A stretch of 64,000 nt of DNA from Betaproteobacteria bacterium (GTDB lineage: Bacteria; Pseudomonadota; Gammaproteobacteria; Burkholderiales; Thiobacillaceae): contig VGVT01000002.1 in NCBI GenBank assembly GCA_016873935.1, positions 1 to 64,000 on the forward strand, written 5' to 3'. Every line of letters starts with the position of its first letter. Position 1 is the stretch's first letter. A program made the position numbers and the translations under genes. Positions 3,081-60,704 of the stretch are shown piece by piece. The notes under the pieces were generated by a model, which was not told the origin of the DNA, made no database searches, and saw only the letters and a list, made by a program, of their open reading frames with translations.

Positions 3081-3217
3081 GTCCTCGGCCGGCCGCATCG
3101 TCGAGTCGGCGGCGCGGACGATCGCCACCATCCAGGGCATCAGCGATGCGCTGCATCAATCGTCTGTTGGAAAAGCACGGACTCAAGGGCGAGGGGTGAT
3201 GCCCGAGCGGTAACGCT

Positions 3218-46732: not shown

Positions 46733-48256
46733 TCAATCCAGCTTGATGGCCGTGCCGACGAGCTGGTGCACGCCACCGACCATGTTGCGGTCGAATCCGT
46801 AGTAAGGCAGAACCTTGGTGAACTGCGCCTTGCAGATGGCGCAGATGAGCGCCAGGAAGTTGACGCCCTGGCCCTGCACTACGTTGTTGTAGGCATTCAT
46901 GCGCGGCAACGCGCCCTTCACCCGCACCTCGATCAGGTCGTCGGTGAGGAGGCCGCCGCCGCCACCACAGCAGAAAGTGGATTCACCGATGGTTTCCGCC
47001 GCCATGTCCTGGAAATTGTTGGCCACCGCGCGGATGATGTTGCGCGGAATGGTGAACTGGCCGCCCGGTTCCGTGCCCATGCGCGAGGCGCGCGCGACGT
47101 TGCAGGAATCGTGGAAAGTAATGACGCGGTCGTCGTTGAGGGACTTGTCGAACTTGAGCACGCCCTTCTCGATGAGATCCCAGGTGTATTCGCAGATGTG
47201 CATGGGCTGCGGGTAACGCGGGTCGAGCTGATTCTGCAGTTCGACGGAGAAGGGATCGTCGCCACCGTAGCCGATGCCGGTCAGGGTATTCCAGAACGCG
47301 TAGGCGACGCGCCAGGCATGGCCGCACTCGCCGACGATGATGCGCTTGACGCCGAGTTCGAGGGCGGCATCGCGGATGCGCATGGCAATGTTCCGCATGG
47401 TTTCGTAATTGCCGTTGAACAGGCCGAAATTACCGGCCTCCGAGGCCTTGCTGGACAGGGTCCAGGACGCTCCGGCGGCATGGAACACCTTGGCATAGCC
47501 GATCAGGGACTCGACGTGCGGCTCGGAGAAGAAGTCGGCGGAGGGCGTCACCAGCAGGATTTCGGCGCCTTCGACGTCCAGCGGCATTTTCACCGGCACA
47601 CCGGTGTCGGCCTCGATATCCTCCTCCAGGCCCAGCAGGGTGTCTTCCAGCGCGGGACCGGGCAGGCCGAGGTTGTTGCCGATCTTCTGCACCTTGACCA
47701 GGATTTCACTGGAGTACTTCTGGCCGACACCGACGTAGTTCAGGATCTCTCGGCCAGCCATGGTGATCTCGGCGGTATCGATGCCGTAGGGGCAGTACAC
47801 CGAGCAACGCCGGCACTCGGAGCACTGGTGGTAGTAGTTGTACCACTTGTTCAGCGTGTCCTCGGTGAGGTCCTCGGCGCCTACCAGCCAGGGGGCGATC
47901 TTGCCCGGCAGGGTGAAGTAGCGGCGGTAGACCTTGCGCATCAGTTCCTGGCGCGCCACTGGCATGTTGTTGGGGTCGGCGGTACCGAGGAAGTAGTGGC
48001 ACTTGTCGGTACAGGCGCCACAGTGCACGCAGGCGTCCATGAAGACGCGCACCGAGCGGTATTTCTCCAGGACCTGGCCCATGCGATCTAGGGCGCGTTC
48101 CTTCCAGTCCGCCGGCAACTGGTGCGGATAGCCGAGGTAGGACTGCGAAGTCTCGGCGGCGAGGAAGGATTTCAGGTGCGCGGTCGCCCCTTCCTTGATC
48201 TTGGGGACTTCCGTGTATTCGCTCAGCGCGGGGACTTCGAACTCGGGACCAGCCAC
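46733..48256 (-). CDS. dsrK: DsrK, heterodisulfide-reductase-like catalytic subunit
   Basis: 507 aa, an HdrD-like protein on the cytoplasmic face that probably handles the DsrC trisulfide/disulfide. Two [4Fe-4S] sets occur: CVHCGACTDKCHYF and CSECRRCSVYCPYG. The CCG domain is GESTFCCGGGGGLLTDDL, with another Cys-rich part at HDSCNVARASRMG. The gene lies 53 bases after dsrM, and the DsrM-K pair forms the core of the complex. Confidence 0.95.
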   Translation of the reverse strand: MAGPEFEVPALSEYTEVPKIKEGATAHLKSFLAAETSQSYLGYPHQLPADWKERALDRMGQVLEKYRSVRVFMDACVHCGACTDKCHYFLGTADPNNMPVARQELMRKVYRRYFTLPGKIAPWLVGAEDLTEDTLNKWYNYYHQCSECRRCSVYCPYGIDTAEITMAGREILNYVGVGQKYSSEILVKVQKIGNNLGLPGPALEDTLLGLEEDIEADTGVPVKMPLDVEGAEILLVTPSADFFSEPHVESLIGYAKVFHAAGASWTLSSKASEAGNFGLFNGNYETMRNIAMRIRDAALELGVKRIIVGECGHAWRVAYAFWNTLTGIGYGGDDPFSVELQNQLDPRYPQPMHICEYTWDLIEKGVLKFDKSLNDDRVITFHDSCNVARASRMGTEPGGQFTIPRNIIRAVANNFQDMAAETIGESTFCCGGGGGLLTDDLIEVRVKGALPRMNAYNNVVQGQGVNFLALICAICKAQFTKVLPYYGFDRNMVGGVHQLVGTAIKLD

Positions 48257-48309
48257 GTTAGCTCCTTATCTCTCTCAGCTCGGTTCGCATTGTGCGTCAG
48301 CGGGCGGAC

Positions 48310-49047
48310 TCAGGCCTTGTCGCGTTCCAGGGCGGCGGCCCAGGGCGCGATATGGCGGGTTTCACGCGGATCGTCGGCCTGATTACGGGTCGGGCTGAAG
48401 AAAATTCCCGGGGCATGCAGGAGCTTGCTCACCGGGAAGATGATCATCAGCACCGCCACCAGGAACAGGTGGGCCATGAGCACCGGGTCCGCGGGCATGG
48501 GGCGGAAATCGAAGGTCATGAGGCCCAGCATGAAGGCTTTCACGGCGACGATGTCGGTATGCGCGACGAAGGTCATCAGCATGCCGGACAGACCGATGGC
48601 GATGAGCAGGGCCAGCATCAGGTGATCGGAGGGTGTAGAGATGTAGCGCACGCGGTCGACCAGGAAACGGCGTGCCCACAGGCCGGCGAGGCCGACGACC
48701 ATGGCGAAACTGGCGTACTTGCCGAAAGGCTGGATGAACTCGACCAGGAACCATACGGGTTCCTGGAAATAGCGCACATGACGCAGCAGGACCAGGGCCA
48801 GGCCGACATGGAACAGCCAGCCGAACAGCCAGATCCATTTGTTGGACTTGAACAGCGATTCGAACAACACGACCTCGCGGGCCATGCGCACGGCCACACC
48901 GCCCTTGCCGGTCGGCGCGGGCGTGGTGGGGATATTCAGGGGAGCCGGCGTACGGCCGTACTCGTAGATGCGATAGGCGACTCCGCCGAGCAACACCAGG
49001 GTGGCGAAGTAAAACAGCACCGTGTAGAAAATCGTCAACGAAGTCAT
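48310..49047 (-). CDS. dsrM: DsrM, NarI-like b-type cytochrome
   Basis: 245 aa starting at ATG 49047 (GAGGTGGGG upstream). Five to six membrane helices carry histidines for two haem b groups: LFGWLFHVGLALVLLRHVRYF and LMAHLFLVAVLMIIFPVSKLLH. It is the membrane partner of DsrK in quinone chemistry. A GC hairpin lies between dsrC and dsrM. Confidence 0.93.
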   Translation of the reverse strand: MTSLTIFYTVLFYFATLVLLGGVAYRIYEYGRTPAPLNIPTTPAPTGKGGVAVRMAREVVLFESLFKSNKWIWLFGWLFHVGLALVLLRHVRYFQEPVWFLVEFIQPFGKYASFAMVVGLAGLWARRFLVDRVRYISTPSDHLMLALLIAIGLSGMLMTFVAHTDIVAVKAFMLGLMTFDFRPMPADPVLMAHLFLVAVLMIIFPVSKLLHAPGIFFSPTRNQADDPRETRHIAPWAAALERDKA

Positions 49048-49141
49048 CCCCACCTCTGCATGTCGGGCAGAACACCTCACCGGAACCTGAAACGGCATCC
49101 GGGCGGTTGCATTCACACTTGCACAAACACTTTCAACAGCG

Positions 49142-49163
49142 CCCGGCGGGCGCACCCGCCGGG
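49142..49163 (-). other. GC hairpin between dsrC and dsrM
   Basis: CCCGGCGGG and CCCGCCGGG form a perfect 9-bp stem with a 4-base loop, 23 bases after dsrC. Such a structure could protect the 3' end of the abundant dsrC-containing mRNA or be a processing site. Confidence 0.65.
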
Positions 49164-49185
49164 TTGATGCGGCTCCGTAGAGCGA

Positions 49186-49521
49186 TCAGATGCAGCCTGT
49201 CGGCTTCGGCAGGCCGGCGATCTTGCATGCCTGCTTGGCGGGACCGTAGGGAAACAGCTCGTACAGGTACTTGTTGTTGCCCTTGTCCGGACCCAGCTTC
49301 TTGGCGACAGCCTTGGTCAGCACGCGCACGGCGGGAGCGATTTGATACTCCTCGTAGTACTCGCGCAGGAAGTTGATCACTTCCCAGTGGCTATCGGTCA
49401 ACTCGACCTTTTCATCCTTGGCCAGGTATTCCCCGATTTCCCTAGTCCAGTCGGCCAGATTGGTCAGGTAACCCTCTTCATCGACTTCGAACGACTTGCC
49501 AGCAACTTCGACCATAGGCAT
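49186..49521 (-). CDS. dsrC: DsrC, sulfur carrier protein
   Basis: 111 aa. It carries sulfur as persulfide/trisulfide between DsrEFH, DsrAB and DsrMK. Both functional cysteines are present: C99 in PAKQACKIAG and the penultimate C110 in TGCI. FEVDEEGYLTNLADW and LTDSHWEVINFLREYY are typical. This is the true two-cysteine form; a cysteine-less paralogue lies in the divergent cassette at 54.4 kb. AAGGAG-like site upstream. Confidence 0.97.
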   Translation of the reverse strand: MPMVEVAGKSFEVDEEGYLTNLADWTREIGEYLAKDEKVELTDSHWEVINFLREYYEEYQIAPAVRVLTKAVAKKLGPDKGNNKYLYELFPYGPAKQACKIAGLPKPTGCI

Positions 49522-49546
49522 AGCATTTCTCCTTAAAGAACAAAAA

Positions 49547-49846
49547 TTACAGCCAGGACTGACAGGTGCTGTGTTCCGTCACCAGATCCACAAAACCGCC
49601 GTAATCCACCAGTTTCACCCCATCCAGAACACGCCCGGCCATGCCGCGCGCTTCCATGTCGGGCCCCAGGGCATAAATCTGAAGGTCGGCCATGGCCGAC
49701 TGGATTTTCGCCGCCGCCTCGCTGCCCTGGGTCGCCGCGTACACGGCATCCTCGATCAGCAACACGGCGGAACCTTTGGTGGCCATGCGCAGACAGCTCT
49801 CCAGGGAGTTCCGCTCGGTGGCCGACTTATTGACGATATGCAGCAT
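49547..49846 (-). CDS. dsrH: DsrH, sulfurtransferase complex subunit
   Basis: 99 aa, TusB/DsrH family. It is part of the DsrE2F2H2 hexamer that relays sulfane sulfur to DsrC. MLHIVNKS and AVLLIEDAVYAA match the family, and the conserved Cys occurs in SLESCLRMA. It lies 11 bases after dsrF and 25 bases before dsrC. Confidence 0.93.
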   Translation of the reverse strand: MLHIVNKSATERNSLESCLRMATKGSAVLLIEDAVYAATQGSEAAAKIQSAMADLQIYALGPDMEARGMAGRVLDGVKLVDYGGFVDLVTEHSTCQSWL

Positions 49847-49857
49847 GTTCGTTTTCC

Positions 49858-50256
49858 TCAGAAGCTGATGACGACGTCCTGCTCAGCCATGAGGCTGGCC
49901 ATTTCGGCGCTGTCGAGCACGGTCACATCCACGATCAGGTCGTCCTCGGAAAGGCCGCGGGCGTCCATGGACGCTTTTTCGACATACAGTTTCTCGATGT
50001 CGTAGCCTTCCAGGGCGCGGTAGGTCTTGGAGAAATCCTTGACCTCGATACCCTTGGTGTTCATGCCCTTGATCAGTTCGTACACGCCATCGTCGGTGAA
50101 CACCATGCTCACGTCCTGATCGAAGGCGGCGGAAATCAACACCACTTCCAGGCCTTCCAGGGCGTAAACGGTGCCGTGCGGCGCCTTGCGGTTGACGAAC
50201 ATGAATTTCTTGACGACGCCTTCGCCGCCTTCCATGTCATCCATCATGTCGCTCAT
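49858..50256 (-). CDS. dsrF: DsrF, sulfurtransferase complex subunit
   Basis: 132 aa, TusC/DsrF family. KKFMFVNRKAPHGTVYALEGLEVVLISAAFDQDVSMVF shows the family fold. No cysteine is found in the part that aligns to DsrF active positions, as is common for this subunit, which is structural. It is between dsrE and dsrH with short spacers. Confidence 0.93.
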   Translation of the reverse strand: MSDMMDDMEGGEGVVKKFMFVNRKAPHGTVYALEGLEVVLISAAFDQDVSMVFTDDGVYELIKGMNTKGIEVKDFSKTYRALEGYDIEKLYVEKASMDARGLSEDDLIVDVTVLDSAEMASLMAEQDVVISF

Positions 50257-50266
50257 TGCGTTCCCC

Positions 50267-50626
50267 TTAATCGCCGAAGGTCACCAGGCGATCACACTGG
50301 ATGCCGGCTTCCACCAACTGGCCCAGGCCGGAAATACGGAATCCGGGAGCCAGAATCTCGTCCTTGATGCCGCGGCGCATGCCGGCGGCGACGCACACCA
50401 CCAGATCGACGCCGTGGTCTTCCGCCAGCTTGGACCAGCGGTTGACCACGTGACGGTCATCCTGGGGGGGCTCGGTGAGCTTGGTCGAGTTGTTGACGCC
50501 GTCGTGATAAAAGAACACGCGAGGCACTTTATGGCCCTTCTCGATAGCCGTACGGGCGAAGAGATACGCGGTATCGCTCGCCTGATGGTTATACGGGCCT
50601 TCGCTAACCATAATGCCGATCTTCAT
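50267..50626 (-). CDS. dsrE: DsrE, active-site subunit of DsrEFH
   Basis: 119 aa, TusD/DsrE family. The persulfide-carrying cysteine is C78 in LVVCVAAGMRRGI, the same number as the active Cys of Allochromatium DsrE. MKIGIMVSEGPYNHQASDTAY opens the fold. It is co-transcribed with dsrF and dsrH. Confidence 0.95.
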   Translation of the reverse strand: MKIGIMVSEGPYNHQASDTAYLFARTAIEKGHKVPRVFFYHDGVNNSTKLTEPPQDDRHVVNRWSKLAEDHGVDLVVCVAAGMRRGIKDEILAPGFRISGLGQLVEAGIQCDRLVTFGD

Positions 50627-50664
50627 TTAAATATCCCTATCTCCGAATAACAAAACCGCCTCCG

Positions 50665-50684
50665 GGCCCCGGCATGCCGGGGCC
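50665..50684 (-). other. GC palindrome in the dsrB-dsrE spacer
   Basis: A perfect 20-base palindrome GGCCCCGGCATGCCGGGGCC follows dsrB by 8 bases. It could form a stable mRNA hairpin and separate the reductase message from the sulfurtransferase message. Confidence 0.65.
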
Positions 50685-50692
50685 GTGAAGGA

Positions 50693-51766
50693 TCAGAAGC
50701 GGATGTGCGCGGAAGCGTTCAGGCTGCTGCGACCACCACGCCAGTTGTCGATGTGGTACTTGGTGAAGGGCAGACCGGTCTTCTCGAAGAACGCGGGCCA
50801 ACCGATGCGATCGATCCAGTCGGTCATGCGCTCCCAGGGACGACCATCGGCCTTGTAGACGGCCAGGATCTTCTTGACCGCCTCGGCAACTTCGGGCCAA
50901 CGCGGGGCGTTGTTGGGCAGGCCGGCGGCCACCAGCTTGTGGAAGGTGGGGCGCGAACGGGCGTTGGAGTTCTTGCCGCCGACCCAGATGGCGATCTTCG
51001 AATGCTCGGGGTCGTTGATCTGCATGGGCGGGCAGGGGGGGAAGCAGGCGCCGCAGCAGATGCACTTCTTCTCGTCCACTTCCAGAGAGGGCTTGCCGTT
51101 CACCAGGGCGGGACGGATGGCGGCCACCGGACAACGGGCGACGACCGAAGGACGCTCGCAGATGTTGGCGACGAGATCGTGGTTGATCTTCGGCGGCTTG
51201 GTGTGCTGCACGATGATGGCGATGTCGGCCTGGCCGCCGCAGTTGATCTCGCAGCAGGAGGTGGACAGCTTGACCCGGTTGGGCATCTCGCACTTGACGA
51301 ATTCGTCGTACAGCTCGTCCATCAGCGCCTTCACCACGCCGGAGGCGTCGGTGCCGGGGATGTCGCAGTGCAGCCAGCCCTGGGTGTGGGCGATCATGGA
51401 CACCGAGTTGGCGGTGCCGCCGACCGGGAAGCCATTGTCGGACAGGGCCTTGATCAGGGGCTCGACCTTGGACTGGTCGGTGACCATGTACTCGATGTTG
51501 GAACGGGTGGTGAAGCGCACGAAGCCGTCGGCGAACTGATCGGCGATGTCGGCCAGCTTGCGCACGGTGTAGTGGTCCATCTGGCGCTGGGTGCCAGCCT
51601 TGACGGTCCAGACTTCGGCGCCGCCCTCGGCGCGGTGGTAGAGCACACCCGGCTTGGGATGGGAGTGGTAAATCCACTTCCCATAATTGTTCTTCATGAC
51701 AGGGTGCATGTAGGGCATCGGGTCCGGCGCGCCGGATTCGATGGTCTCGTGAGTTCTTTCAGCCAT
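50693..51766 (-). CDS. dsrB: DsrB, reverse dissimilatory sulfite reductase beta subunit
   Basis: 357 aa from ATG 51766 (GGAG 7 bases upstream). Siroheme/[4Fe-4S]-binding region LSTSCCEINCGGQADIAII and a ferredoxin insertion CICCGACFPPCPPMQI are present, with QGWLHCDIPGTDASGVVKAL. It forms an alpha2beta2 enzyme with DsrA that oxidises sulfide released from DsrC to sulfite. The neighbours identify it as the oxidative type. Confidence 0.97.
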   Translation of the reverse strand: MAERTHETIESGAPDPMPYMHPVMKNNYGKWIYHSHPKPGVLYHRAEGGAEVWTVKAGTQRQMDHYTVRKLADIADQFADGFVRFTTRSNIEYMVTDQSKVEPLIKALSDNGFPVGGTANSVSMIAHTQGWLHCDIPGTDASGVVKALMDELYDEFVKCEMPNRVKLSTSCCEINCGGQADIAIIVQHTKPPKINHDLVANICERPSVVARCPVAAIRPALVNGKPSLEVDEKKCICCGACFPPCPPMQINDPEHSKIAIWVGGKNSNARSRPTFHKLVAAGLPNNAPRWPEVAEAVKKILAVYKADGRPWERMTDWIDRIGWPAFFEKTGLPFTKYHIDNWRGGRSSLNASAHIRF

Positions 51767-51807
51767 GCTTATCTCCAACCTATTGAGATCGAAAACCTTG
51801 CTTTACC

Positions 51808-51831
51808 CCGGCCCGCGCAAGGGCGGGCCGG
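51808..51831 (-). other. GC hairpin between dsrA and dsrB
   Basis: CCGGCCCGC and GCGGGCCGG form a 9-bp stem with a 6-base loop, 10 bases after dsrA. It lies in a 75-base spacer before dsrB. Confidence 0.6.
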
Positions 51832-51841
51832 AACACCGGAA

Positions 51842-53143
51842 TCAGGCCGCGGCCTGCTTGCGCTCGAACCACTTCTCGGCTTCCTCGTCCCAGCCATCCA
51901 TGCGGACGTAGGGGTTGCTGCGGGGATGCACGATCATGTTGGCATCCACCTCGAGGCCGATGCCCTCCAGGAAGTTGACCAGGCCGATGCGATCGATCAT
52001 CTCGCCGGTACGCTCGTGCTCCAGAGCGTTCTCGGCGAAGAAGTCGAGGATGTTGCGGGACAGTTCGTTCAGCTTCTCGAAGTCCTCGTCGGACTCCATC
52101 TTCATGAACGGGATCACCACGGTACCCATGGTGGCACCGATCTTCAGCACGCCCTTGCCGCCCACCAGGATGGTGACGCCCTTGTCCTTGCCGGGCAGCA
52201 GCGCGCCGGGCATGACGTTCAGGCAGTGCATGCAGCGCACGCAGTTGTGGTTGTCGATCTCCAGGCAGTTGGCGTCGGACACGGCCACCTTGGTGATGCC
52301 CTCGCCGGCGGCGGCGCCGTCGTTCTTGACCAGGCGGATGGCGCGGGTGGGACACATGGAAACGACCATGTTGGTCAGGTCTTCCATGCTGTGCGCAGCC
52401 ATCCATTCACGGGCGATCTTCTCGTCCGCGCGCATGCTGTCGCGCCAGGTGCCGATGGTAGCCATGTCGGAACGCTGGATGGCGTTGACGCAGTCGTTGG
52501 GGCAGCCGGAGAACTTGAACTTGAACTTGTACGGCAGGGACGGACGGTGCATGTCGTCCAGGTTGTTGTTGATGACGGTGCGCAGGGCACGGGCCTCGTC
52601 ATAACAGGACATTTCGCAGCGGGCGGCGCCAACGCAGGACATGGAGGTACGCAGGGCGGGACCGGCGCCACCGAGGTCGAAGCCCATCTCGTTGAACTTG
52701 TCGAAGGAACGCTGCACATCCTCGGTCTTGATGCCCTGGAACATGATGTCGCCGGACTGGCCGTGGAAGGCGATCAGGCCGGAACCGCCGGTCTCAAGCC
52801 AGGCGTCGCACATCTGGCGCAGCAGGTCGGAGGTGTAGTGCATGCCGGCCGGGGGCTGGATGCGCAGGGTGTGGAACTCGGCGGCCTCGGGAAACTTGGG
52901 CTTGCCGTCGGCATCCTTGAGTTCGGTGAAACGGGGGATGACGCCGCCGCCATAGCCGACCACGCCGACGGTGCCACCCTTCCAGTAGCCAAACTTGGTC
53001 TCATAGGAGGTTTCGAGCTGGCCCATGAGGTCGACCATCATGTCGTTCTCGTTGGCCAGGCGCTTCAGGCCGGTGACGAAAGAGGGCCAGGGACCCTTCT
53101 CCAGATCGTCCAGGTTGGGCGTTTTATACGGTTGCTTAGCCAT
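51842..53143 (-). CDS. dsrA: DsrA, reverse dissimilatory sulfite reductase alpha subunit
   Basis: 433 aa, start at ATG 53143 with AAGGAG upstream. The siroheme-cluster ligands are in SCVGAARCEMSC and FSGCPNDCVNAIQRSD. The inserted ferredoxin domain is NCLEIDNHNCVRCMHCLNVMP. It is the first gene of the operon dsrABEFHCMKLJOP-NR-cysG. A 263-base region separates it from the divergent cassette. Presence of DsrL, DsrEFH and DsrN shows a sulfur-oxidising rather than sulfate-reducing role. Confidence 0.97.
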   Translation of the reverse strand: MAKQPYKTPNLDDLEKGPWPSFVTGLKRLANENDMMVDLMGQLETSYETKFGYWKGGTVGVVGYGGGVIPRFTELKDADGKPKFPEAAEFHTLRIQPPAGMHYTSDLLRQMCDAWLETGGSGLIAFHGQSGDIMFQGIKTEDVQRSFDKFNEMGFDLGGAGPALRTSMSCVGAARCEMSCYDEARALRTVINNNLDDMHRPSLPYKFKFKFSGCPNDCVNAIQRSDMATIGTWRDSMRADEKIAREWMAAHSMEDLTNMVVSMCPTRAIRLVKNDGAAAGEGITKVAVSDANCLEIDNHNCVRCMHCLNVMPGALLPGKDKGVTILVGGKGVLKIGATMGTVVIPFMKMESDEDFEKLNELSRNILDFFAENALEHERTGEMIDRIGLVNFLEGIGLEVDANMIVHPRSNPYVRMDGWDEEAEKWFERKQAAA

Positions 53144-53406
53144 CTGTCTTTCTCCTTGAAGTCTTGAACTACGGGTGTCGTCACAACTAACAGCACCTTG
53201 CCGCCGGCTTCAGACCGCACGGTCCAGTCATCGCATATTAGTGAGCCCTAATCGAGCCTTCCATCATTCCGATGGGGTAACTGGGTCCTTCACTCGGGTA
53301 TCCAGAACCTACCCGAAGGGGTAGGTTCTGGATAATCCATCTCGGAACTGTAAATACCCGACTTAAAATGTCAGATAATTAGCAAATCAACGAAAGCTTA
53401 TAGATT
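53144..53406. promoter_or_regulatory. Divergent promoter region, dsrA and Cmx6 cassette
   Basis: The 263 bases between the starts of dsrA and the 79-aa gene hold no gene. They must contain the promoters of both units. A perfect hairpin lies at 53300-53333. No sigma hexamer pair or known operator was confidently recognised. Confidence 0.6.
53300..53333. other. Perfect 15-bp hairpin with GAAG loop
   Basis: ATCCAGAACCTACCC pairs fully with GGGTAGGTTCTGGAT across a GAAG loop. It is 157 bases upstream of dsrA and 74 bases upstream of the 79-aa gene. No T-tract follows in either direction. It may be an operator dyad, or an RNA hairpin if transcribed. Confidence 0.8.
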
Positions 53407-53646
53407 ATGGACCAGATCACCTCGCTTGCGAAGTTCAGAAATCCTTATGGCAACCAAGAAATCGAATTTCAGGACGTGCGCTTCGAGGCTGGGGGCACGC
53501 CCATGCTACGGCTGCGCATCCGCGAACGAGGCGCGCGCTTCACCATTTTCGACATCGATCCGGTCACCGCACGCTACTGGGCCGAGGAAATGCTCAAGTG
53601 GGCGGGCCCGCTAGACACCGCGTCGCCGACCGCCGGGGAGACCTGA
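53407..53646 (+). CDS. Conserved small protein, first gene of the Cmx6 cassette
   Basis: 79 aa beginning MDQITSLAKFRNPYGNQEIE. It looks like a small mixed alpha/beta protein with strands LRLRIRERGARFTIFDID and a helix TARYWAEEMLKWAG. No cysteine or membrane segment. I do not recognise a function. It ends 3 bases before the Cas6/Cmx6-like gene, so the two are translationally coupled. It is divergent from dsrA. Confidence 0.65.
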   Translation: MDQITSLAKFRNPYGNQEIEFQDVRFEAGGTPMLRLRIRERGARFTIFDIDPVTARYWAEEMLKWAGPLDTASPTAGET

Positions 53647-53649
53647 TCC

Positions 53650-54303
53650 ATGCGCATGTACAGCCCGGAATGGGAAGCCATCAAGGACTTCGAGCACATC
53701 GCCAAATACCGCGAGATTCAGTTCGACCTGAGCGGTTTCGAGCTTCCCCAGGACCACGGCTATGCCCTGTTCGAGGCCCTGGCCCGACACCTGCCCTGGC
53801 TGCGGGAACTGCCCGAAGCGGGCGTGCATCCGGTGCACGCCGCCCCCAGCGGCCGCAACGCCAACCTGGTCATCAATCGGCGCGTGAAGCTGGTGTTGCG
53901 CCTGCCCATCGAGCGCATTGCCGAGGCCCACGCCCTGGAGGGCCGCGTCATCGACCCGGGCGCCGGCGACATCCGGATCGGCGCCGTCAAGGAAAAGCCC
54001 CTGACCCCCTATGCCACGCTGTACGCCCACTTCGTCGATCTGGGCACGCTCGATGAAGCGGCCTTCCTGGAGGCGGCGCGGCGGGAACTGGAGGCTATGG
54101 ACATCCGCGCCGGCCTGATCCCGGGCAAGCGGCGCGACATGCACACACCCAATGGGGTTATTGGCGGCTTCAGCCTGATGTTGCACGATATCAGTCTGCT
54201 GCAATCGCTGACCGTGCAGGAACGCGGCCTGGGCCTGCATCGTGGTTACGGCTGCGGCATCTTTGTGCCGCACAAATCCATCAAGGAAGTGGGCGGCGGC
54301 TGA
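53650..54303 (+). CDS. Cas6/Cmx6-family CRISPR endoribonuclease, orphan
   Basis: 217 aa. It resembles the Cas6 variant Cmx6 of the type I Myxan group: FDLSGFELPQDHGYALFEAL, HLPWLRELPEAGVHPV, LVLRLPIERIAEAHALEG, PYATLYAHFVDLGTLDEAAF and a C-terminal glycine-rich loop GLGLHRGYGCGIFVPHK (about 193-209). Cas6 enzymes are RAMP-fold, metal-independent RNases that cut beside hairpins. H36 in DHGY is a conserved candidate for catalysis. No CRISPR array, cas1, cas2 or effector gene is in the window. GGGGAG lies 9 bases before ATG. It sits between a coupled small gene and a DsrC paralogue, next to dsrA. Confidence 0.82.
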   Translation: MRMYSPEWEAIKDFEHIAKYREIQFDLSGFELPQDHGYALFEALARHLPWLRELPEAGVHPVHAAPSGRNANLVINRRVKLVLRLPIERIAEAHALEGRVIDPGAGDIRIGAVKEKPLTPYATLYAHFVDLGTLDEAAFLEAARRELEAMDIRAGLIPGKRRDMHTPNGVIGGFSLMLHDISLLQSLTVQERGLGLHRGYGCGIFVPHKSIKEVGGG

Positions 54304-54355
54304 GCGATCCGGCCGCCGCACACCTTATTTTCAACTTGTCTGATAGGAGAGAACC

Positions 54356-54688
54356 GTGGGATACGTTTTGAACGGCGAAGAACTGGAAGTGGATGACGAT
54401 GGTTTCCTGCTGGAAGCCAATTTCAGCGACGAGATCGTCCCCGTCATCGCCGAGGCCGAAGGCATCACGCTGACCGACGAGCACTGGCAGATCATCAACT
54501 ACATGCGCCGCAAGTACCAGGAAGACGGCCACACGCCGAACTTCCGCAACATGGTGGCGGAACTGGACGAGGAAATCGAAGGCATGGACTGGAAGAAGAA
54601 GCTCTATGAACTCTTCCCCCTGCAGCCCAACCGCCAGGCCGCCAAGGTGGCCGGCCTGACCAAGCCTTTCGGCAAGGGCGGCTACTGA
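54356..54688 (+). CDS. DsrC/TusE-superfamily protein without cysteines (RspA type)
   Basis: 110 aa from GTG 54356, with AGGAGA upstream. The fold matches DsrC: LNGEELEVDDDGFLLEANF, LTDEHWQIINYMRRKY, KKLYELFPLQPNRQAAKVAGL. Both catalytic cysteines are lost: the first is Ala (RQAAKVAG) and the end is KPFGKGGY. There is no cysteine in the whole protein, so it cannot carry sulfur. Cysteine-less family members have been called RspA and proposed to be regulatory. It is a paralogue of dsrC 5 kb away. Confidence 0.88.
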   Translation: MGYVLNGEELEVDDDGFLLEANFSDEIVPVIAEAEGITLTDEHWQIINYMRRKYQEDGHTPNFRNMVAELDEEIEGMDWKKKLYELFPLQPNRQAAKVAGLTKPFGKGGY

Positions 54689-54693
54689 GAAGC

Positions 54694-54728
54694 GAGTAGC
54701 AGGTAGCAGGTAGCGGGTAGCCGGTAGC
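54694..54728 (+). repeat. Heptamer array, left arm (locus C)
   Basis: Five exact 7-base steps (GAGTAGC, AGGTAGC, AGGTAGC, GGGTAGC, CGGTAGC) start 5 bases after the DsrC-like gene. The opposing arm is at 54762-54803. Confidence 0.8.
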
Positions 54729-54761
54729 GAATGCATGCGCGCCTCCGGCGCGGAAATTCAA

Positions 54762-54803
54762 GCTACGAGCTACCCGCCACCCGCTACCAGCTACGAGCTA
54801 GCA
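54762..54803 (+). repeat. Heptamer array, right arm (locus C)
   Basis: Six 7-base steps beginning GCTACGA, GCTACCC end 3 bases before the sulfurtransferase start. They are reverse complements of the left arm, so a long stem can form. Confidence 0.8.
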
Positions 54804-54806
54804 GCC

Positions 54807-55655
54807 ATGTTTTCCAATACCCTCGTCACCACCGAAGATCTCGCGGCCCATCTCGACGATCCCAACTGGGTCGTGTTCGACTGCCGCTTCACGCTGACCG
54901 ACCCCAACGCGGGCCGGGAAGCCTACGGGAAACACCACATCCCCGGCGCCCGCTACGTCCATCTGGACGACGACCTGTCGGCACCCATCACCGAGATCAC
55001 CGGCCGCCATCCCCTGCCCGAGCCGATGGCCTTCGCCGAGAAGGTCTGCCGCTGGGGCGTCGGCGTCAACAAGCAGGTGGTGGTCTACGACGACAGCTAT
55101 GGCGCCATGGCCGTGCGTATGTGGTGGATGCTGCGCTGGTTGGGCCATCCCGGCGTCGCCCTGCTGGACGGTGGCTACCCCAAGTGGCAGCGCGAAAAAC
55201 GCCCGGTCACCGCCGAAGTGCCGGAAAGCCGGCGCGGCAGTTGCGCCTGCCTGCCCGAGCCCAGCCAGATCGTCGACGCCGGCACCGTGCTGCGCGCCTC
55301 GCAAACCGCCGACGCCCTCATCATCGACGCCCGCCCGGAACGCCGCTTCAGCGGCGAGTTCGAACCCCTGGACACGGTTGCCGGGCACATCCCCGGCTCC
55401 ATCAACTGGTCCTTCGAGGAGAACCTGGACATCGACGGCACCTACCTGCCGCCGGAAGCCCTGCGCGAGAATTTCCAGGCCCTGCTGAAGGGCCGCGCGC
55501 CCTGGCAGGTCATTCACACCTGCGGCTCCGGCGTCACCGCCTGCCATAACCTGCTGGCCATGGAAATCGCCGGCCTGCCCGGTTCCCGCCTCTACCCCGG
55601 CTCCTGGAGCGAGTGGATTCGCGATCCCTCGCGGCCCGTCGCCACCGGAGAATAA
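54807..55655 (+). CDS. 3-mercaptopyruvate/thiosulfate sulfurtransferase (tandem rhodanese)
   Basis: 282 aa from ATG 54807; frames opening upstream are read from the heptamer repeat and are rejected. Two rhodanese domains: the N-terminal is structural (VVFDCRFTLTDPNAGREAY, HIPGARYVHLDDDLS) and the C-terminal holds the active loop HTCGSGVTACHN. The CGSGVT loop is the mercaptopyruvate sulfurtransferase (SseA) form rather than CRKGVT of thiosulfate sulfurtransferase. It could supply persulfide to the cytoplasmic sulfur relay. No clear Shine-Dalgarno is left beside the repeat. Confidence 0.9.
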   Translation: MFSNTLVTTEDLAAHLDDPNWVVFDCRFTLTDPNAGREAYGKHHIPGARYVHLDDDLSAPITEITGRHPLPEPMAFAEKVCRWGVGVNKQVVVYDDSYGAMAVRMWWMLRWLGHPGVALLDGGYPKWQREKRPVTAEVPESRRGSCACLPEPSQIVDAGTVLRASQTADALIIDARPERRFSGEFEPLDTVAGHIPGSINWSFEENLDIDGTYLPPEALRENFQALLKGRAPWQVIHTCGSGVTACHNLLAMEIAGLPGSRLYPGSWSEWIRDPSRPVATGE

Positions 55656-55657
55656 AC

Positions 55658-56236
55658 GTGCTGCGCGCGAAAACCGTCTGGTTCAAGAAAGAAGGCGAGC
55701 GCCCCGCCGAGGAAGTCGCCACGGTCCTGGCCTCGACCATCTGGCGCCTCGCCGACAAGGCCGTGGACAACCTGTCCAAGGCCAATTTCGACATCGTCAC
55801 CCCCGAACGCGGCTTCAAGATCATCGGCGAGCTCAGTTGCTTCCTGACTCATTACGTCGATCGCCTGGCCTTCGAACGCATGGACGACAGCAAGCGCCTG
55901 AATCTGGTCAGCGCCGTCGGCGTGCGCCTGGCGGAAATCATGGAGCAGAACATCCTCGACATGACCGGCGGCAAGACGGATCCGGACTACGACTACCAGG
56001 ACGGCTACATCGACCTGCTCAACCGCCGCATGACGGATTATTCCGAGTTCGAATTTCCCGAGGACAAGGCCAGCTTCCAGGCCCTGCGCTTCCTCTCCCT
56101 GATGATCCGGGAGGGCATGGAGAAAACCGACCAGACCTGGATCCAGGACCAGCTCATGGACATCGAGGTGCCGGAGATGATGGGCATGGTCAAGAAGAAC
56201 ATGGACGGGTTTTATCCTGAAGGTCGTGCGTCGTGA
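55658..56236 (+). CDS. Conserved hypothetical protein of the Cmx6 cassette
   Basis: 192 aa, start GTG 55658 with GGAG upstream, 2 bases after the sulfurtransferase gene. It is mainly helical and soluble (ASTIWRLADKAVDNLSKANF, LVSAVGVRLAEIMEQNILDM). A single cysteine occurs in ELSCFLTHYVDRL. PDYDYQDGYIDLLNRRM is acidic and aromatic-rich. I recognise no domain. Its position couples it to the sulfurtransferase. Confidence 0.65.
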   Translation: MLRAKTVWFKKEGERPAEEVATVLASTIWRLADKAVDNLSKANFDIVTPERGFKIIGELSCFLTHYVDRLAFERMDDSKRLNLVSAVGVRLAEIMEQNILDMTGGKTDPDYDYQDGYIDLLNRRMTDYSEFEFPEDKASFQALRFLSLMIREGMEKTDQTWIQDQLMDIEVPEMMGMVKKNMDGFYPEGRAS

Positions 56237-56269
56237 GTGGCAAGTGGCAAGTGGCAAGTCGCAAGTAGA
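56235..56269 (+). repeat. Heptamer array, left arm (locus D)
   Basis: Five 7-base steps (GAGTGGC, AAGTGGC, AAGTGGC, AAGTCGC, AAGTAGA) begin at the stop of the 192-aa gene. The opposing arm is at 56288-56336. Confidence 0.75.
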
Positions 56270-56287
56270 ACAAGCGGACACGGTACC

Positions 56288-56336
56288 GACTCACGACTCA
56301 CGACTCACAACTCACGACTTGCCACCCGCCACTGAC
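56288..56336 (+). repeat. Heptamer array, right arm (locus D)
   Basis: Seven 7-base steps (GACTCAC three times, AACTCAC, GACTTGC, CACCCGC, CACTGAC) end 11 bases before the TauD-like gene. Part is complementary to the left arm at 56235-56269. Confidence 0.7.
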
Positions 56337-56347
56337 CACTCCCCGCC

Positions 56348-57277
56348 ATGATCCCGCCAGACTCCCCCTTCCATCCCGACAACGAAGCCGGCTACCAGAC
56401 CTGGCGCGCGGCCAAGCTGGCCGGCTATCCCACCCGCGGCGAAGACCTCATCGTCGCGGTGAAGGACCCGAGCAACCTCTCCAACGAGGAATATCTGGCC
56501 CTCTGGCGGCTGATCGCCAAGACCAACATGGCCATCTACGCCACCGACCTGGGAGAAACCGAGGACAAGGACGGCCCCCGCCTGCTCTCCGCCCAGTTCG
56601 GACTCAACCATCTGGACGCCAACTGGCTCGCCGACGAGGATGGCATCTCCAGCCTTACCCCCCGGGACGAGGACACCAGCGCCCCGGACGGGCGCACGCC
56701 GGGCATCGATCCGGGCAAGCGCGGGGACTACATCCCCTACACACACCACCGCATCCGCTGGCACACCGACGGCTACTACAACCCGCCCGAGCGCCGCATC
56801 TGGGCGATGACCCTACACTGCGTGCGGCAGGCGGACGCGGGCGGCGAGAACGACCTGATGGACCACGAACTGGCCTACATGGCCCTGCGCGACGCCAATC
56901 CGGACCACATCCGCGCGCTCATGGCGGAAGACGCCATGACCATCCCGGCGCGGGTGGACGAGATGGGGGTGGCCCGTGGCGACGAGACCGGCCCGGCCTT
57001 CTGCGTGGATCAGGGCCTGCTCCATCTGCGCTATACGGCGCGCACCAAGAGCATCGCCTGGAAACAGGACGCCGCCACCCAGGCGGCCCTGCATGCGCTG
57101 GAGGCACTGCTCGCCAGCCAGCCCTTCGGCGCCTTCACCCTGAAGCTGCAACCGGGCATGGGCCTGATCTGCAACAACGTGCTGCACACCCGTTCAGGCT
57201 TCACCGACCGGCCGGAACACCGCCGCCTGCTCTACCGGGCCCGCTACCACGACCATCTGAGGAATCTCCGGGCCTAG
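56348..57277 (+). CDS. TauD/TfdA-family Fe(II)/2-oxoglutarate dioxygenase
   Basis: 309 aa. The iron-binding HxD is in RIRWHTDGYYNP and the distal His in NNVLHTRSGFTD, with the 2-oxoglutarate Arg in DRPEHRRLLYR. The family oxidises taurine and other substrates, releasing sulfite in the case of TauD. The substrate here is unknown, but the sulfur-gene context permits an organosulfur compound. The stop TAG lies in the CTAG target duplication of a MITE-like element, so this end touches the insertion. Confidence 0.88.
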   Translation: MIPPDSPFHPDNEAGYQTWRAAKLAGYPTRGEDLIVAVKDPSNLSNEEYLALWRLIAKTNMAIYATDLGETEDKDGPRLLSAQFGLNHLDANWLADEDGISSLTPRDEDTSAPDGRTPGIDPGKRGDYIPYTHHRIRWHTDGYYNPPERRIWAMTLHCVRQADAGGENDLMDHELAYMALRDANPDHIRALMAEDAMTIPARVDEMGVARGDETGPAFCVDQGLLHLRYTARTKSIAWKQDAATQAALHALEALLASQPFGAFTLKLQPGMGLICNNVLHTRSGFTDRPEHRRLLYRARYHDHLRNLRA

Positions 57278-57442
57278 GAGCCTGTCGGACTTTGGTCGTC
57301 GATAGCGAAAAACGTCCCCGTCGAGGACAGTTTTTGACGATTTTGCAGGGCAATAGTCGAACTATTGCCCAAAAAAGCGGCAAAAAATGGACCGACGGGG
57401 GCGTTTTGCAGCCGACGATTCCAAAGTCCGACAGGCTCCTAG
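57274..57442. mobile_element. MITE-like element with CTAG duplication
   Basis: An about 161-base element (57278-57438) has perfect 18-bp terminal inverted repeats starting GAGCCTGTCGGACTTTGG and is bounded on both sides by CTAG, the likely target duplication. It encodes no protein. An inner hairpin has GGGCAATAGT and its complement (57348-57370). The left CTAG supplies the stop codon of the TauD-like gene. The parent transposon is not in the window. Confidence 0.8.
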
Positions 57443-58108
57443 CTAGCCCCTGCCGGCGCCGCCGCCCGGCCCCAGCTTGTGTTCCACCGCGAACACCGCC
57501 GCCTCCACGCGCGAGGAGAGGTTCAGCTTGGCGAGGATGTGGCGCACGTGCAGCTTCACGGTGTCGTAGCTGATGTCCAGTTGCCGGGCGATGGCCTTGT
57601 TGCTTTCGCCCTTGGCCAGGTGAGAGAGGATTTCCCGCTCCCGCTGCGTCAGCGACTCCAGCAGCGAGGTGGCGCTGTTGCCCTTGTTGTCGAGCATGCG
57701 CACCAGCTTCGCGGTCATGCCCGGCGCCACCACGGTCTCGCCGCGGGCGGCGCGGATGATGGCGTCCACCACCTCGTCCGGCTCCATGCTCTTCAGCAGG
57801 TAACCCTTGGCGCCGTTGCGCAGGGCGCGCGCCATGTCCTCCTCCGCCTCGCTGACGGTAAGGATGAGCACCGGCAGATCATGGCCCTCGGCGCGCAGGG
57901 CCTGCATCACCTGGATGCCGTCGGTGCCGCCGATGTTGAGATCGAGGATCAGCACGTCCGGCCTCTTCTCCCGCAGCAGATCGGAGACCTCGGCGGGGTT
58001 GCCGGTGATGGCGGAAACGTTGACCGCCCCCTGACTTTCCAGGAGTTCGGCCAGACCCTTGCGGAACAGGGTGTGGTCGTCCACCAGGACGATGCTCAAT
58101 CGGCTCAA
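57443..58108 (-). CDS. NarL/FixJ-type response regulator
   Basis: 221 aa. It starts at TTG 58108 (GGAG upstream), overlapping the kinase stop as TTGA. The receiver domain has VLVDDHTLFRKGLAELL, the phospho-Asp in VLILDLNIGGTDG, T in ILTVSEAEED and K in GYLLKSM. The LuxR-type HTH is LTQREREILSHLAKGESNKAIARQL and KLHVRHILAKLNLSSRVEAAV. It forms a two-component pair with the upstream kinase. The gene ends at TAG in a CTAG next to the MITE-like element. Confidence 0.93.
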   Translation of the reverse strand: MSRLSIVLVDDHTLFRKGLAELLESQGAVNVSAITGNPAEVSDLLREKRPDVLILDLNIGGTDGIQVMQALRAEGHDLPVLILTVSEAEEDMARALRNGAKGYLLKSMEPDEVVDAIIRAARGETVVAPGMTAKLVRMLDNKGNSATSLLESLTQREREILSHLAKGESNKAIARQLDISYDTVKLHVRHILAKLNLSSRVEAAVFAVEHKLGPGGGAGRG

Positions 58109-59343
58109 GATTTCTCCTCGATGCCCTGGCGGGCCGGGAAGCTGAGCCGGACGATGGTGCCGCCTGCCGGCCGGCTTTCGATGGTGAGGCGCCCGCCCAG
58201 CTTGGCGGCGCGTTCGCGCATGATGGTGAGACCGAAGCTCTTGCCCATGTCGGTGGTGGCGTGCGACACCAAACCCACACCGTCGTCGGCCACGTTCACC
58301 ACGTACTGTTTTTCGTGCAGATCCAGGGTCACCACCACGTGGCGGGCACGGGAGTGTTTGCAGATGTTGTAGAGGGCTTCCTGGATGATGTGGAAGACCT
58401 GGATTTCCTCTTCCGGCGTCAGCACCACGTCCTGCGCGACGTTGAGGAAGTCGACGTCGGCGTTGGCCTTCTTGCTGAAGCTTTCCGCCATCTCCTGCAG
58501 GGCCGGCACCAGGCCGCGCGGATCGATGCGGTCGCGGAACTGGGTGATGAGGTTGCGCAGTTCCGAGTAAGCCATGTCCACCGCCTCCTCGACGTCGCCC
58601 AGGTAGCGGTTGGCGCGGTCCTGGTCGCCGTCGGCGAAGGCCTCGTTGAGCACCGACAGGCGCATCTTCGCGTAGGCCAGAGTCTGCGCCAGGGAATCGT
58701 GGATCTGGTTGGCCAGCATGGTGCGCTCGTTCATCAGCGAGATGCGCATGTTCTCGCGCGTCAGGCGGGTGTTCTCCAGGGCCATGCCCAGGTGTTCGCT
58801 GATCGAGTTGAAGAGGGTGCGGATGTCCCGCGGCAGGGGCTCGGGGTTGTCCAGGAAGATGTTGTACACCCCCATCACCTTGCCCTTGTAGCGCAGGGGC
58901 ACGGCATACACCGTGCTGCAATGCTGGGCGAAGTAGATGTGGCGCACCTGCTTCTGGCACACCTCCATGACGCTTTCGCTTTGCGAGGACTGGGTGAGCG
59001 TGGCCTTGCCGCAGATGCCGCATTCCAGCGGCACGTAGCGCTCCTTTTCCACCAGCGCGGGGGAAAGCCCGATAGAGCCCACCATGCGCAGGTGGGCGCC
59101 GTCGGCGGTGAGGACGCGCACCGCGCCGGCCTTGGCCCTGGAAATGCGCACCATGATTTCCAGGAAGCGCATGAGCATCTGTTCGGTGTCGGCTTCCGCG
59201 CTCATGCTGCTGGCGATTTCCGCCAGCACCTCGATGACCGGCAGGCGATCGCCACCCTCCGCGCCGGCTCCGGGCGGTTCACCGGGCTCCGGGGTAGTGC
59301 TGGCCATGCCTATGGCGTCGAGGGGAATGCGGTAGGTTTCCAC
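58105..59343 (-). CDS. NarX-type histidine kinase with Cys-rich GAF domain
   Basis: 412 aa, soluble, no membrane helix. A GAF domain (about 35-205) holds four cysteines at 108, 111, 129 and 142 (CGIC, EVCQKQ, QHCSTV), a pattern that could bind an iron-sulfur cluster or sense redox. The HisKA_3 dimerisation segment has QIHDSLAQTLAYAKMRL with the phospho-His. The HATPase shows FHIIQEALYNICKHSRA and VADDGVGL, GLTIMRERAAKLGG. It lacks the periplasmic sensor of NarX. Co-transcribed with the response regulator. Confidence 0.9.
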   Translation of the reverse strand: METYRIPLDAIGMASTTPEPGEPPGAGAEGGDRLPVIEVLAEIASSMSAEADTEQMLMRFLEIMVRISRAKAGAVRVLTADGAHLRMVGSIGLSPALVEKERYVPLECGICGKATLTQSSQSESVMEVCQKQVRHIYFAQHCSTVYAVPLRYKGKVMGVYNIFLDNPEPLPRDIRTLFNSISEHLGMALENTRLTRENMRISLMNERTMLANQIHDSLAQTLAYAKMRLSVLNEAFADGDQDRANRYLGDVEEAVDMAYSELRNLITQFRDRIDPRGLVPALQEMAESFSKKANADVDFLNVAQDVVLTPEEEIQVFHIIQEALYNICKHSRARHVVVTLDLHEKQYVVNVADDGVGLVSHATTDMGKSFGLTIMRERAAKLGGRLTIESRPAGGTIVRLSFPARQGIEEKS

Positions 59344-59417
59344 GCTTGCGGATCGTCAGGCGGAACCCGCATGTTAACGGAGCCGCGCGCGGACACGCAC
59401 CCCCGGCTGCATGCGCT

Positions 59418-60704
59418 TCACAAGTTCTGCGCGAGCTTGTTGCGGGCGAGGGGCGGATTCTTCTCGAAGTAACGCTTGATGCCGTCGACGATGGCGCGCG
59501 CCATTTGGTCCTGGTAGGCCTCGTCGTTGAGGCGCTTCTCCTCCTCCGGGTTGGAGATGAAGGCGGTCTCCACCAGGATGGAGGGAATGTCCGGCGCCTT
59601 CAGCACGGCAAATCCGGCCTGCTCCACGTGCGGCTTGTGCAGCCGGTTGATGCCGCCGAGTTCCTCCAGCACCGCCTTGCCCACGCGCAGGCTGTCGGCG
59701 ATCTGCGCGGTCTGCGAGAGGTCGATGAGGGTCTGCTTCAGGTATACGTCTTTCACCGCGATGTTGACGCCGCCGATCAGGTCGGCATCGTTCTCCCGCT
59801 TCGCCAGCCATCGCGCCGCGGCGGAAGTGGCGCCCTTCTCCGACAGCGCGAACACCGAGGAGCCGCGGGCGTGTGGCTTGATGAAGGCGTCGGCGTGCAC
59901 CGACACGAACAGGTCGGCCTGCACCTTGCGCGCCCGGTTGACGCGCTCGTGCAGGGGCAGGAAGTAGTCGCCGTCGCGGGTCAGGTAGGCGCGCATGTTT
60001 TCGGTCTTGTCGATCATCCCCTTCAGACGGCGGGCGATGGACAGGGTGATGTCCTTCTCGCGCGAACCGTTCGCGCCGATGGCGCCCGGATCCTCGCCGC
60101 CGTGACCGGGATCGATGGCGATGGTGATGAGCCGCACGTAGTCCGGCTGGGCGGCCCTGGCGGCGGTGTTGCCGCGCGCATCCCTGGCGGCGCCCGCGGC
60201 CTGCGCCGCCTTGTCGCCGGCAGTCGCCGCGTCGGCCTTGCGTTCGGCCCGGCCGATGGCGTTCTCCACCAGGCTTTCCAGGGTTTCGGCGGAGGCGGGA
60301 TACAGGTCGATCACCAGCCTGTGGCCGTAATCACCCATGGGCTTGAGGGTGAACACCTGCGGCCGCGCCTCGGTTTTCAGTTCCACCACCAGGCGCGTCA
60401 CGCCGGGCCGGTTGAGGGCCACGCGGATGCCGGCGATATAGGCGTCCTGCGGCACCACCTTCGAGCTGATCTCGGTAAGGGCGGCCTCGGGATTGACCCC
60501 CTCCAGGTCGATGACCAGCCTGTTGGGGTTGGCCAGGCTGAAATGCTTGAAAGTGATGGCCGCGTCCACCTCCACGGTGATGCGGCTGTACTCCGGCGAC
60601 GGCCACAGACGCGTGGCCTTGACGCTGGCGGCCTGGACCACCCCGGCGCAGAGCAGGAGCAGGCCGAGAATCAGACCGGCGAAGCGTTCAGCCGAGCAAT
60701 GCAT
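59418..60704 (-). CDS. amiC: N-acetylmuramoyl-L-alanine amidase AmiC type
   Basis: 428 aa from ATG 60704, overlapping tsaE by 34 bases. Signal peptide ends near VVQA. An AMIN domain (about 27-140; KATRLWPSPEYSRITVEVDA, LVIDLEGVNPE) localises it to the division site. The amidase_3 domain holds zinc ligands in IDPGHGGEDPGAIG, the Glu in ANGSREKDITL, FVSVHADAF and VLVETAFISN. It splits daughter-cell peptidoglycan. The tsaE-amiC order is usual in proteobacteria. Confidence 0.93.
   Translation of the reverse strand: MHCSAERFAGLILGLLLLCAGVVQAASVKATRLWPSPEYSRITVEVDAAITFKHFSLANPNRLVIDLEGVNPEAALTEISSKVVPQDAYIAGIRVALNRPGVTRLVVELKTEARPQVFTLKPMGDYGHRLVIDLYPASAETLESLVENAIGRAERKADAATAGDKAAQAAGAARDARGNTAARAAQPDYVRLITIAIDPGHGGEDPGAIGANGSREKDITLSIARRLKGMIDKTENMRAYLTRDGDYFLPLHERVNRARKVQADLFVSVHADAFIKPHARGSSVFALSEKGATSAAARWLAKRENDADLIGGVNIAVKDVYLKQTLIDLSQTAQIADSLRVGKAVLEELGGINRLHKPHVEQAGFAVLKAPDIPSILVETAFISNPEEEKRLNDEAYQDQMARAIVDGIKRYFEKNPPLARNKLAQNL

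Follow-up and report, generated by a model that had tools for sequence, protein, structure and literature searches.

A DsrC-family branch lacking the penultimate cysteine, tied to reverse-Dsr loci and usually encoded after a Cas6 gene in gammaproteobacteria

Introduction

DsrC is a central carrier of dissimilatory sulfur metabolism. Its relative TusE relays sulfur to MnmA for 2-thiouridine, using the same penultimate cysteine as DsrC. A cysteine-less class of the family has already been named: Venceslau et al. reportedly introduced the name RspA in 2014 for cysteine-independent proteins of the DsrC superfamily in sulfur oxidizers, and proposed them as regulators.

The penultimate cysteine is also the residue through which DsrC binds DsrEFH (PMC3397948). 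The role of the extra DsrC-family genes of sulfur oxidizers, four in A. vinosum, has been called open (PMC3368242); one of these four DsrC/TusE-family genes, Alvin_1508, falls together with the dsr genes on pyrite (PMC11267869). According to a secondary source, DNA upstream of the dsr cluster is bound by DsrC in A. vinosum (PMC5944118). Sulfur phages have yielded five DsrC sequences with neither cysteine motif, their function being left open, and the published phage groups lacking cysteines have been read as TusE-like, as non-functional or as having a modified function (PMC8190135, PMC4164917). A literature search, covering a minority of the subscription journals, returned no paper on Cas6 in dsr loci, on RspA or on the KGGY signature described here.

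The gene analysed lies in a stretch of 64,000 nucleotides (the window). We compare its product, called the KGGY protein after its C-terminus, and its surroundings with these systems.

Results

The KGGY protein has the DsrC fold and no cysteine

The gene, its main sites and the canonical dsrC of the same genome are as follows.

54345 to 54349, plus strand: ribosome-binding site AGGAG, seen in the sequence; the GGAG before the start is kept in relatives
54356 to 54688, plus strand: KGGY protein gene, encoding a cysteine-free DsrC-family protein of 110 amino acids, GTG start
54641 to 54643, plus strand: codon of Ala96, aligned with the first C-terminal cysteine of DsrC
54674 to 54685, plus strand: codons of K107, G108, G109 and Y110, which form the invariant tail found in place of the penultimate cysteine
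49186 to 49521, minus strand: canonical dsrC with both cysteines, 5 kb from the KGGY gene

The reading frame opens with GTG at 54356 and closes with a stop codon at 54686-54688, and none of its 110 codons specifies cysteine. When the protein is aligned with the DsrC of its own genome (49186-49521, minus strand), whose arm reads ...YGPAKQACKIAGLPKPTGCI, the corresponding arm, ...LQPNRQAAKVAGLTKPFGKGGY, has alanine at the first cysteine position and Lys-Gly-Gly-Tyr instead of the penultimate cysteine. The docking arm KQ..(K/R)(I/V)AGLP, common to DsrC, is kept in the KGGY proteins.

Profile searches match the protein to the Pfam DsrC family PF04358 (E 2.3e-31) and to TIGR03342 (84 bits, above the curated cut-off of 53.5), and a sequence search of the PDB returned DsrC matches, the best being A. 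vinosum DsrC (1yx3). An AlphaFold model, for which 43 family members were aligned, reaches a pLDDT of 91.7. Its top Foldseek match is again 1yx3, with a TM score of 0.83, and the eight significant matches are all DsrC or TusE-type structures. The reading frame, the lack of cysteine, the alanine and the KGGY end given in the preliminary description are all borne out by sequence and alignment; its view that the DsrC fold is kept agrees with the model, and the placement inside the DsrC superfamily is upheld by the two profiles and the fold.

The source genome contains six DsrC-family genes. Two other paralogues also end without a C-terminal cysteine (locus L165, 7314-7730, ending FGSVH; locus L166, 6337-7140, ending KTKGEH).

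The invariant tail marks a separate branch of the family

Eighty orthologues were gathered with peptide patterns that left out the tail, and all 80 end in GKGGY; the motif HTPNFR is almost as constant. The codons of GKGGY occur in 22 synonymous spellings in the 80 loci, which indicates that the constraint acts on the protein. Together, this synonymous variation and the invariance of a tail absent from the search patterns exclude a chance origin of the tail. The first cysteine position is variable: it holds Ala, Ser, Gly or Val, and many Thiobacillus have Cys there, in the sequence RQGCR. One or two cysteines are present in 23 of the 80 orthologues, whereas the penultimate cysteine is replaced in every member of the clade. 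The earlier statement that both cysteines are missing is thus correct for this protein, but of the two losses only that of the last cysteine is invariant in the clade. Alanine at the first position was rejected as a clade-defining trait, since it varies among the 80 orthologues.

A second KGGY group, from other gammaproteobacteria and from other classes, has the tail xRKGGY, most often as ESRRKGGY; its first cysteine position is in most cases taken by Gly or Ala. A further 56 distinct members of both groups are all KGGY-tailed, which is weaker evidence of invariance because this set was found partly with a profile that contained the tail. The other DsrC-family reading frames of the same loci comprise plain DsrC, plain TusE and five divergent proteins, with one more that ends at the locus edge before the arm; none of them has a tail intermediate between KGGY and DsrC or TusE.

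In a phylogenetic tree, a branch with support of 99/92 separates 73 KGGY proteins from DsrC and TusE; the alignment behind it is short, and resolution among the inner branches is poor. The split persisted after each row had been shortened by its last 13-15 residues (SH-aLRT 96, quick search), so that the separation of KGGY from DsrC and TusE is not produced by the tail itself. As judged from these sequences, the KGGY protein is the Burkholderiales form of a monophyletic DsrC-family branch without the penultimate cysteine. A pseudogene or recent dsrC copy was rejected on the tree and the invariant tail. The notion of a functionless, degenerate dsrC duplicate has nothing in its favour beyond the loss of cysteine; it is refuted by the monophyly, the invariant tail and a gene order kept across classes of Proteobacteria, and its probability is practically nil.

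KGGY genes accompany reverse-type DsrA

The distribution of the gene was examined in an even sample of 398 genomes of the phylum, with DsrA scored against that of the window. The KGGY carriers are exactly the 10 genomes with a reverse-type DsrA (at least 560 bits). The gene is absent from the 43 genomes of this sample with a weaker DsrA (at most 480 bits), probably of the reductive type, and from the 345 without a DsrA match. In a sample of the class, DsrA is present in 119 of 369 genomes, and at least 69 of 80 near-complete gammaproteobacteria with dsrA have a match through the KGGY tail; one gammaproteobacterium with dsrA (G507) has no KGGY gene. Fisher values on these co-occurrences describe the samples, as the genomes are related and do not form independent tests. 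The assignment of the protein to the dsr system in the preliminary description is strongly supported by the co-occurrence and by the gene order given below, and the link of the KGGY clade to dsr is well supported. We take the clade to be a regular part of the reverse-Dsr (sulfur-oxidation) locus in Proteobacteria.

The gene order around the KGGY gene

The KGGY gene belongs to a block that is divergent from dsrA.

51842 to 53143, minus strand: dsrA, divergent from the KGGY block
53407 to 53646, plus strand: DUF6967 protein (PF22295), 79 amino acids, first gene of the block, found in 73 of 80 loci
53650 to 54303, plus strand: Cas6/Cmx6-type protein, 217 amino acids, directly upstream of the KGGY gene (PF09559, TIGR02807, model)
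54735 to 55655, plus strand: two-domain rhodanese, mercaptopyruvate sulfurtransferase-like; the start is probably at 54807 (MFSNT..., as in relatives)
55613 to 56236, plus strand: conserved protein, here H207, without a Pfam or NCBIfam match in profile searches, recognised in relatives; start uncertain
56348 to 57277, plus strand: TauD/TfdA-family dioxygenase, which adjoins dsrA in gammaproteobacterial loci

In Burkholderiales the order DUF6967 - Cas6 - KGGY - rhodanese - H207 - TauD hardly varies and runs divergent from dsrABEFHC, and the same block is seen in about 70 of the 80 loci (Cas6 in 74, DUF6967 in 73 and DsrA in 70, several loci being cut by contig ends). The usual block of other gammaproteobacteria is TauD - (orf) - Cas6 - KGGY - (rhodanese or H207), likewise divergent from dsrA. 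Of 58 genomes in which both genes were located, 49 have Cas6 immediately upstream of KGGY by coordinates, and KGGY is divergent from and upstream of dsrA, within 5 kb (median 2.5 kb), in 52 of 55 cases where the two share a contig. In two genomes the gene sits in the dsr operon itself: between dsrK and a dsrL-like gene in the order dsrC-M-K-KGGY-L-J-O-P (locus L224, 7312-7650, genome G616), and before dsrL-dsrJ (locus L222, 6047-6400, genome G479). Three gammaproteobacteria (L168-L170) have DUF6967-Cas6 beside dsrA with no KGGY gene between, and two of them carry KGGY elsewhere (L174, L176). DUF6967 was also observed in two gammaproteobacteria without a DsrC-family gene or dsrA (L171 and L173; genomes G550 and G662), so its role is not confined to dsr.

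The adjoining rhodanese gene and the invariant Gly-Gly near the C-terminus raise the question of a sulfur carrier with another chemistry, in which the glycines of the tail would be exposed and thiocarboxylated as in carriers of the ThiS/MoaD type. Such a carrier is very improbable: the invariant final tyrosine would need to be removed, the fold is that of DsrC and not a beta-grasp, and the block showed neither an E1-like gene nor one for a protease.

The neighbour is a Cas6 by profile and predicted structure

The upstream neighbour matches PF09559 with 189 bits and TIGR02807 with 147 bits. Its model (pLDDT 92.4) has as its best PDB match 8fcu_B, the Cas6 of a type I-B CAST Cascade, with a TM score of 0.83; by profile and predicted structure it is a complete Cas6. 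No array-like repeats were found in positions 52000-58000 of the window, and no cas genes among the Pfam-scanned neighbours of Cas6. In an alignment of 30 members the Gly-rich loop and H208 show little or no variation. H36, which we take from its position to be the expected place of the catalytic histidine, gives way to Asn or Tyr in several of the relatives. RNA cleavage may consequently not be the function of this Cas6.

PF09559 occurs once per genome in 72 of 75 gammaproteobacteria with dsrA and is absent from all five KGGY-bearing reverse-Dsr genomes of other classes examined. Among 198 genomes of the class, 64 of the 68 Cas6 carriers have dsrA. The remaining four, on contigs too short to include dsrA, have Cas6 with the TauD gene in all cases and KGGY in three. 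A few gammaproteobacteria have Cas6 without KGGY (G507, L232, L233). Since each gene occurs alone in some genomes, neither strictly needs the other. The earlier proposal that the protein acts with the Cmx6-like neighbour is thus sustained by an adjacency kept in unrelated families, but not as an obligate pairing; it is gene order that speaks for the Cas6 partnership.

The same observations bear on a different arrangement, in which the KGGY protein is a direct accessory subunit of the Dsr enzymes: its arm would enter the DsrA/DsrB channel, or a site on DsrEFH or on DsrK, as the DsrC arm does, and would gate, protect or inhibit the enzyme, with Cas6 a mere neighbour that has a separate job. The arm residues shared with DsrC are compatible with this, as are the KGGY genes without Cas6 in other classes that keep reverse DsrA and the two genomes with KGGY inside the dsr operon beside dsrL. 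We nevertheless regard it as unlikely, though a serious contender, because the adjacency of Cas6 and KGGY in unrelated families is hard to put down to chance, and because TusE has the same arm but other partners, so that the arm is no pointer to DsrAB.

Inverted repeats at the locus

Two inverted repeats lie next to the genes of the block.

53309 to 53324, no strand: inverted repeat CTACCC-GAAG-GGGTAG, in a 16-bp perfect stem, between dsrA and the DUF6967 gene
54691 to 54799, no strand: large imperfect inverted repeat between the KGGY and rhodanese genes

The gammaproteobacterial form of the repeat upstream of dsrA is CTATCCC-N4-GGGATAG, and its general form CTA(C/T)CC(C)-N4-GG(G)(A/G)TAG. A pattern search placed it no more than 600 bp upstream of dsrA in 40 of the 94 loci, a count that is biased because the patterns were drawn from these loci; the informative figure is the zero copies in their remaining 1.36 Mb. 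The outer arms pair at 0.51, compared with 0.41 for shuffled partners. Its centre varies and some relatives have it in reversed arrangement, which suits a protein operator as well as a hairpin that is a substrate of Cas6. The repeat may thus be either a protein operator or an RNA hairpin of the divergent dsr promoters, and neither is favoured. A search of positions 48000-60000 against Rfam gave no match.

A dsr-specific inverted repeat in a divergent intergenic region could suggest that the KGGY protein is itself a DNA-binding regulator, which binds the repeat and controls both divergent operons. RspA has reportedly been proposed as a regulator, and the secondary source mentioned above reports DNA binding by A. 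vinosum DsrC (PMC5944118). Against this, the pattern used finds the repeat in only 40 of 94 loci, the likeness of the KGGY model to LexA winged helices is not significant in Foldseek, and the response-regulator and sensor-kinase genes close by (57443-59343) are ordinary candidates for such a function. We consider a DNA-binding role of the KGGY protein quite improbable.

At the gap between the KGGY and rhodanese genes, where the window has the 54691-54799 repeat, relatives have quite different REP-like repeat families, which suggests that insertions have recurred at this spot or that it forms a strong mRNA end. Between the H207 and TauD genes, at 56230-56341, lies another inverted structure rich in repeats (GAGTGGCAAGT... 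/ ACTCACGACTTGCCAC...). Just downstream of the TauD gene, at 57274-57442, a 22-bp perfect inverted repeat, CTAGGAGCCTGTCGGACTTTGG, encloses 125 bp and resembles the termini of a small mobile element.

Discussion

One branch of the DsrC family can now be set apart by a simple C-terminal KGGY signature, and in the samples taken it is tied almost one to one to reverse-type DsrAB. The branch also gains a probable partner in Cas6, whose gene follows the pattern of a sulfur-oxidation gene in gammaproteobacteria. On balance we lean, with some reserve, towards a DsrC-like protein of the reverse-Dsr system that has no catalytic role, serves in regulation or docking and usually works with a domesticated Cas6.

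From the chemistry of DsrC and TusE, a protein without the penultimate cysteine would be expected neither to accept a persulfide from DsrEFH nor to form the DsrC trisulfide, and could not take part in a sulfur relay. As lysine at this position bars these reactions, it is economical to assume that the protein acts by binding. Its arm, being kept, points to docking where DsrC docks, and the Cas6 neighbour to an output at the level of RNA; both steps are conjectural. Less certainly, a regulatory or adaptor protein of this kind may dock through its arm on a partner of DsrC (DsrAB, DsrEFH or DsrMK); in most gammaproteobacteria its output might pass through the adjoining Cas6, recruited from CRISPR, which would bind or cut RNA concerned with dsr expression. 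Competition with DsrC for DsrAB, DsrEFH or DsrK, as the preliminary description envisaged, is possible in view of the retained docking arm; no feature of the protein singles out one partner.

A more far-reaching proposal, which we put forward tentatively and with some doubt, is that the former CRISPR Cas6 and the thiol-free DsrC make up a dedicated module of two proteins, present in nearly all gammaproteobacteria with reverse Dsr, which would sense the state of the sulfur relay through the KGGY arm and regulate dsr at the RNA level; some phages would carry the DsrC half in order to manipulate the module. The DsrC look-alike, conserved across sulfur-oxidizing Proteobacteria and mostly encoded behind Cas6, may be a regulator of sulfur oxidation that has so far escaped notice. 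The signature, the tie to dsr and the Cas6 partner make its function directly testable.

Comparison with known systems

The KGGY protein resembles DsrC of the reverse-Dsr and sulfate-reducer type in fold (1yx3, 2v4j_C), in length, in the arm up to AGLPKP and in its locus. DsrC has two C-terminal cysteines and ends in GC(V/I), whereas the KGGY clade never has the penultimate cysteine and forms its own branch; with Ala and Lys at the cysteine positions, and not grouped with DsrC in the tree, the protein is not DsrC proper. TusE shares its fold, its arm and the absence of the first C-terminal cysteine of DsrC, but needs the C-terminal cysteine that the KGGY protein lacks. No KGGY protein was found in those sampled genomes that have TusE without reverse DsrA. 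Thiolation of tRNA in the manner of TusE was rejected as a function, the required penultimate cysteine being absent. RspA, as reportedly defined, belongs to the DsrC superfamily and has no conserved C-terminal cysteine, and the KGGY protein agrees with it in both; as far as sequence and this definition go, the KGGY protein would be an RspA-like member of the superfamily.

The neighbour is like the CRISPR endoribonuclease Cas6/Cmx6 in its PF09559/TIGR02807 matches, its complete Cas6 fold and its Gly-rich loop. It is unlike CRISPR Cas6 in being a single copy tied to dsr loci and in that the candidate catalytic histidine is not always kept, and matches to these two profiles in sulfur oxidizers should not be taken as CRISPR. 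Finally, the sulfur-phage DsrC genes lacking cysteines (PMC4164917, PMC8190135) have a counterpart in one IMG/VR marine viral contig (L234, IMGVR_UViG_3300032087_002997), where a cysteine-free, KGGY-tailed DsrC-like gene at 2971-3312 stands among phage-like reading frames; phage 'dsrC/tusE' genes without cysteine may be the KGGY protein.
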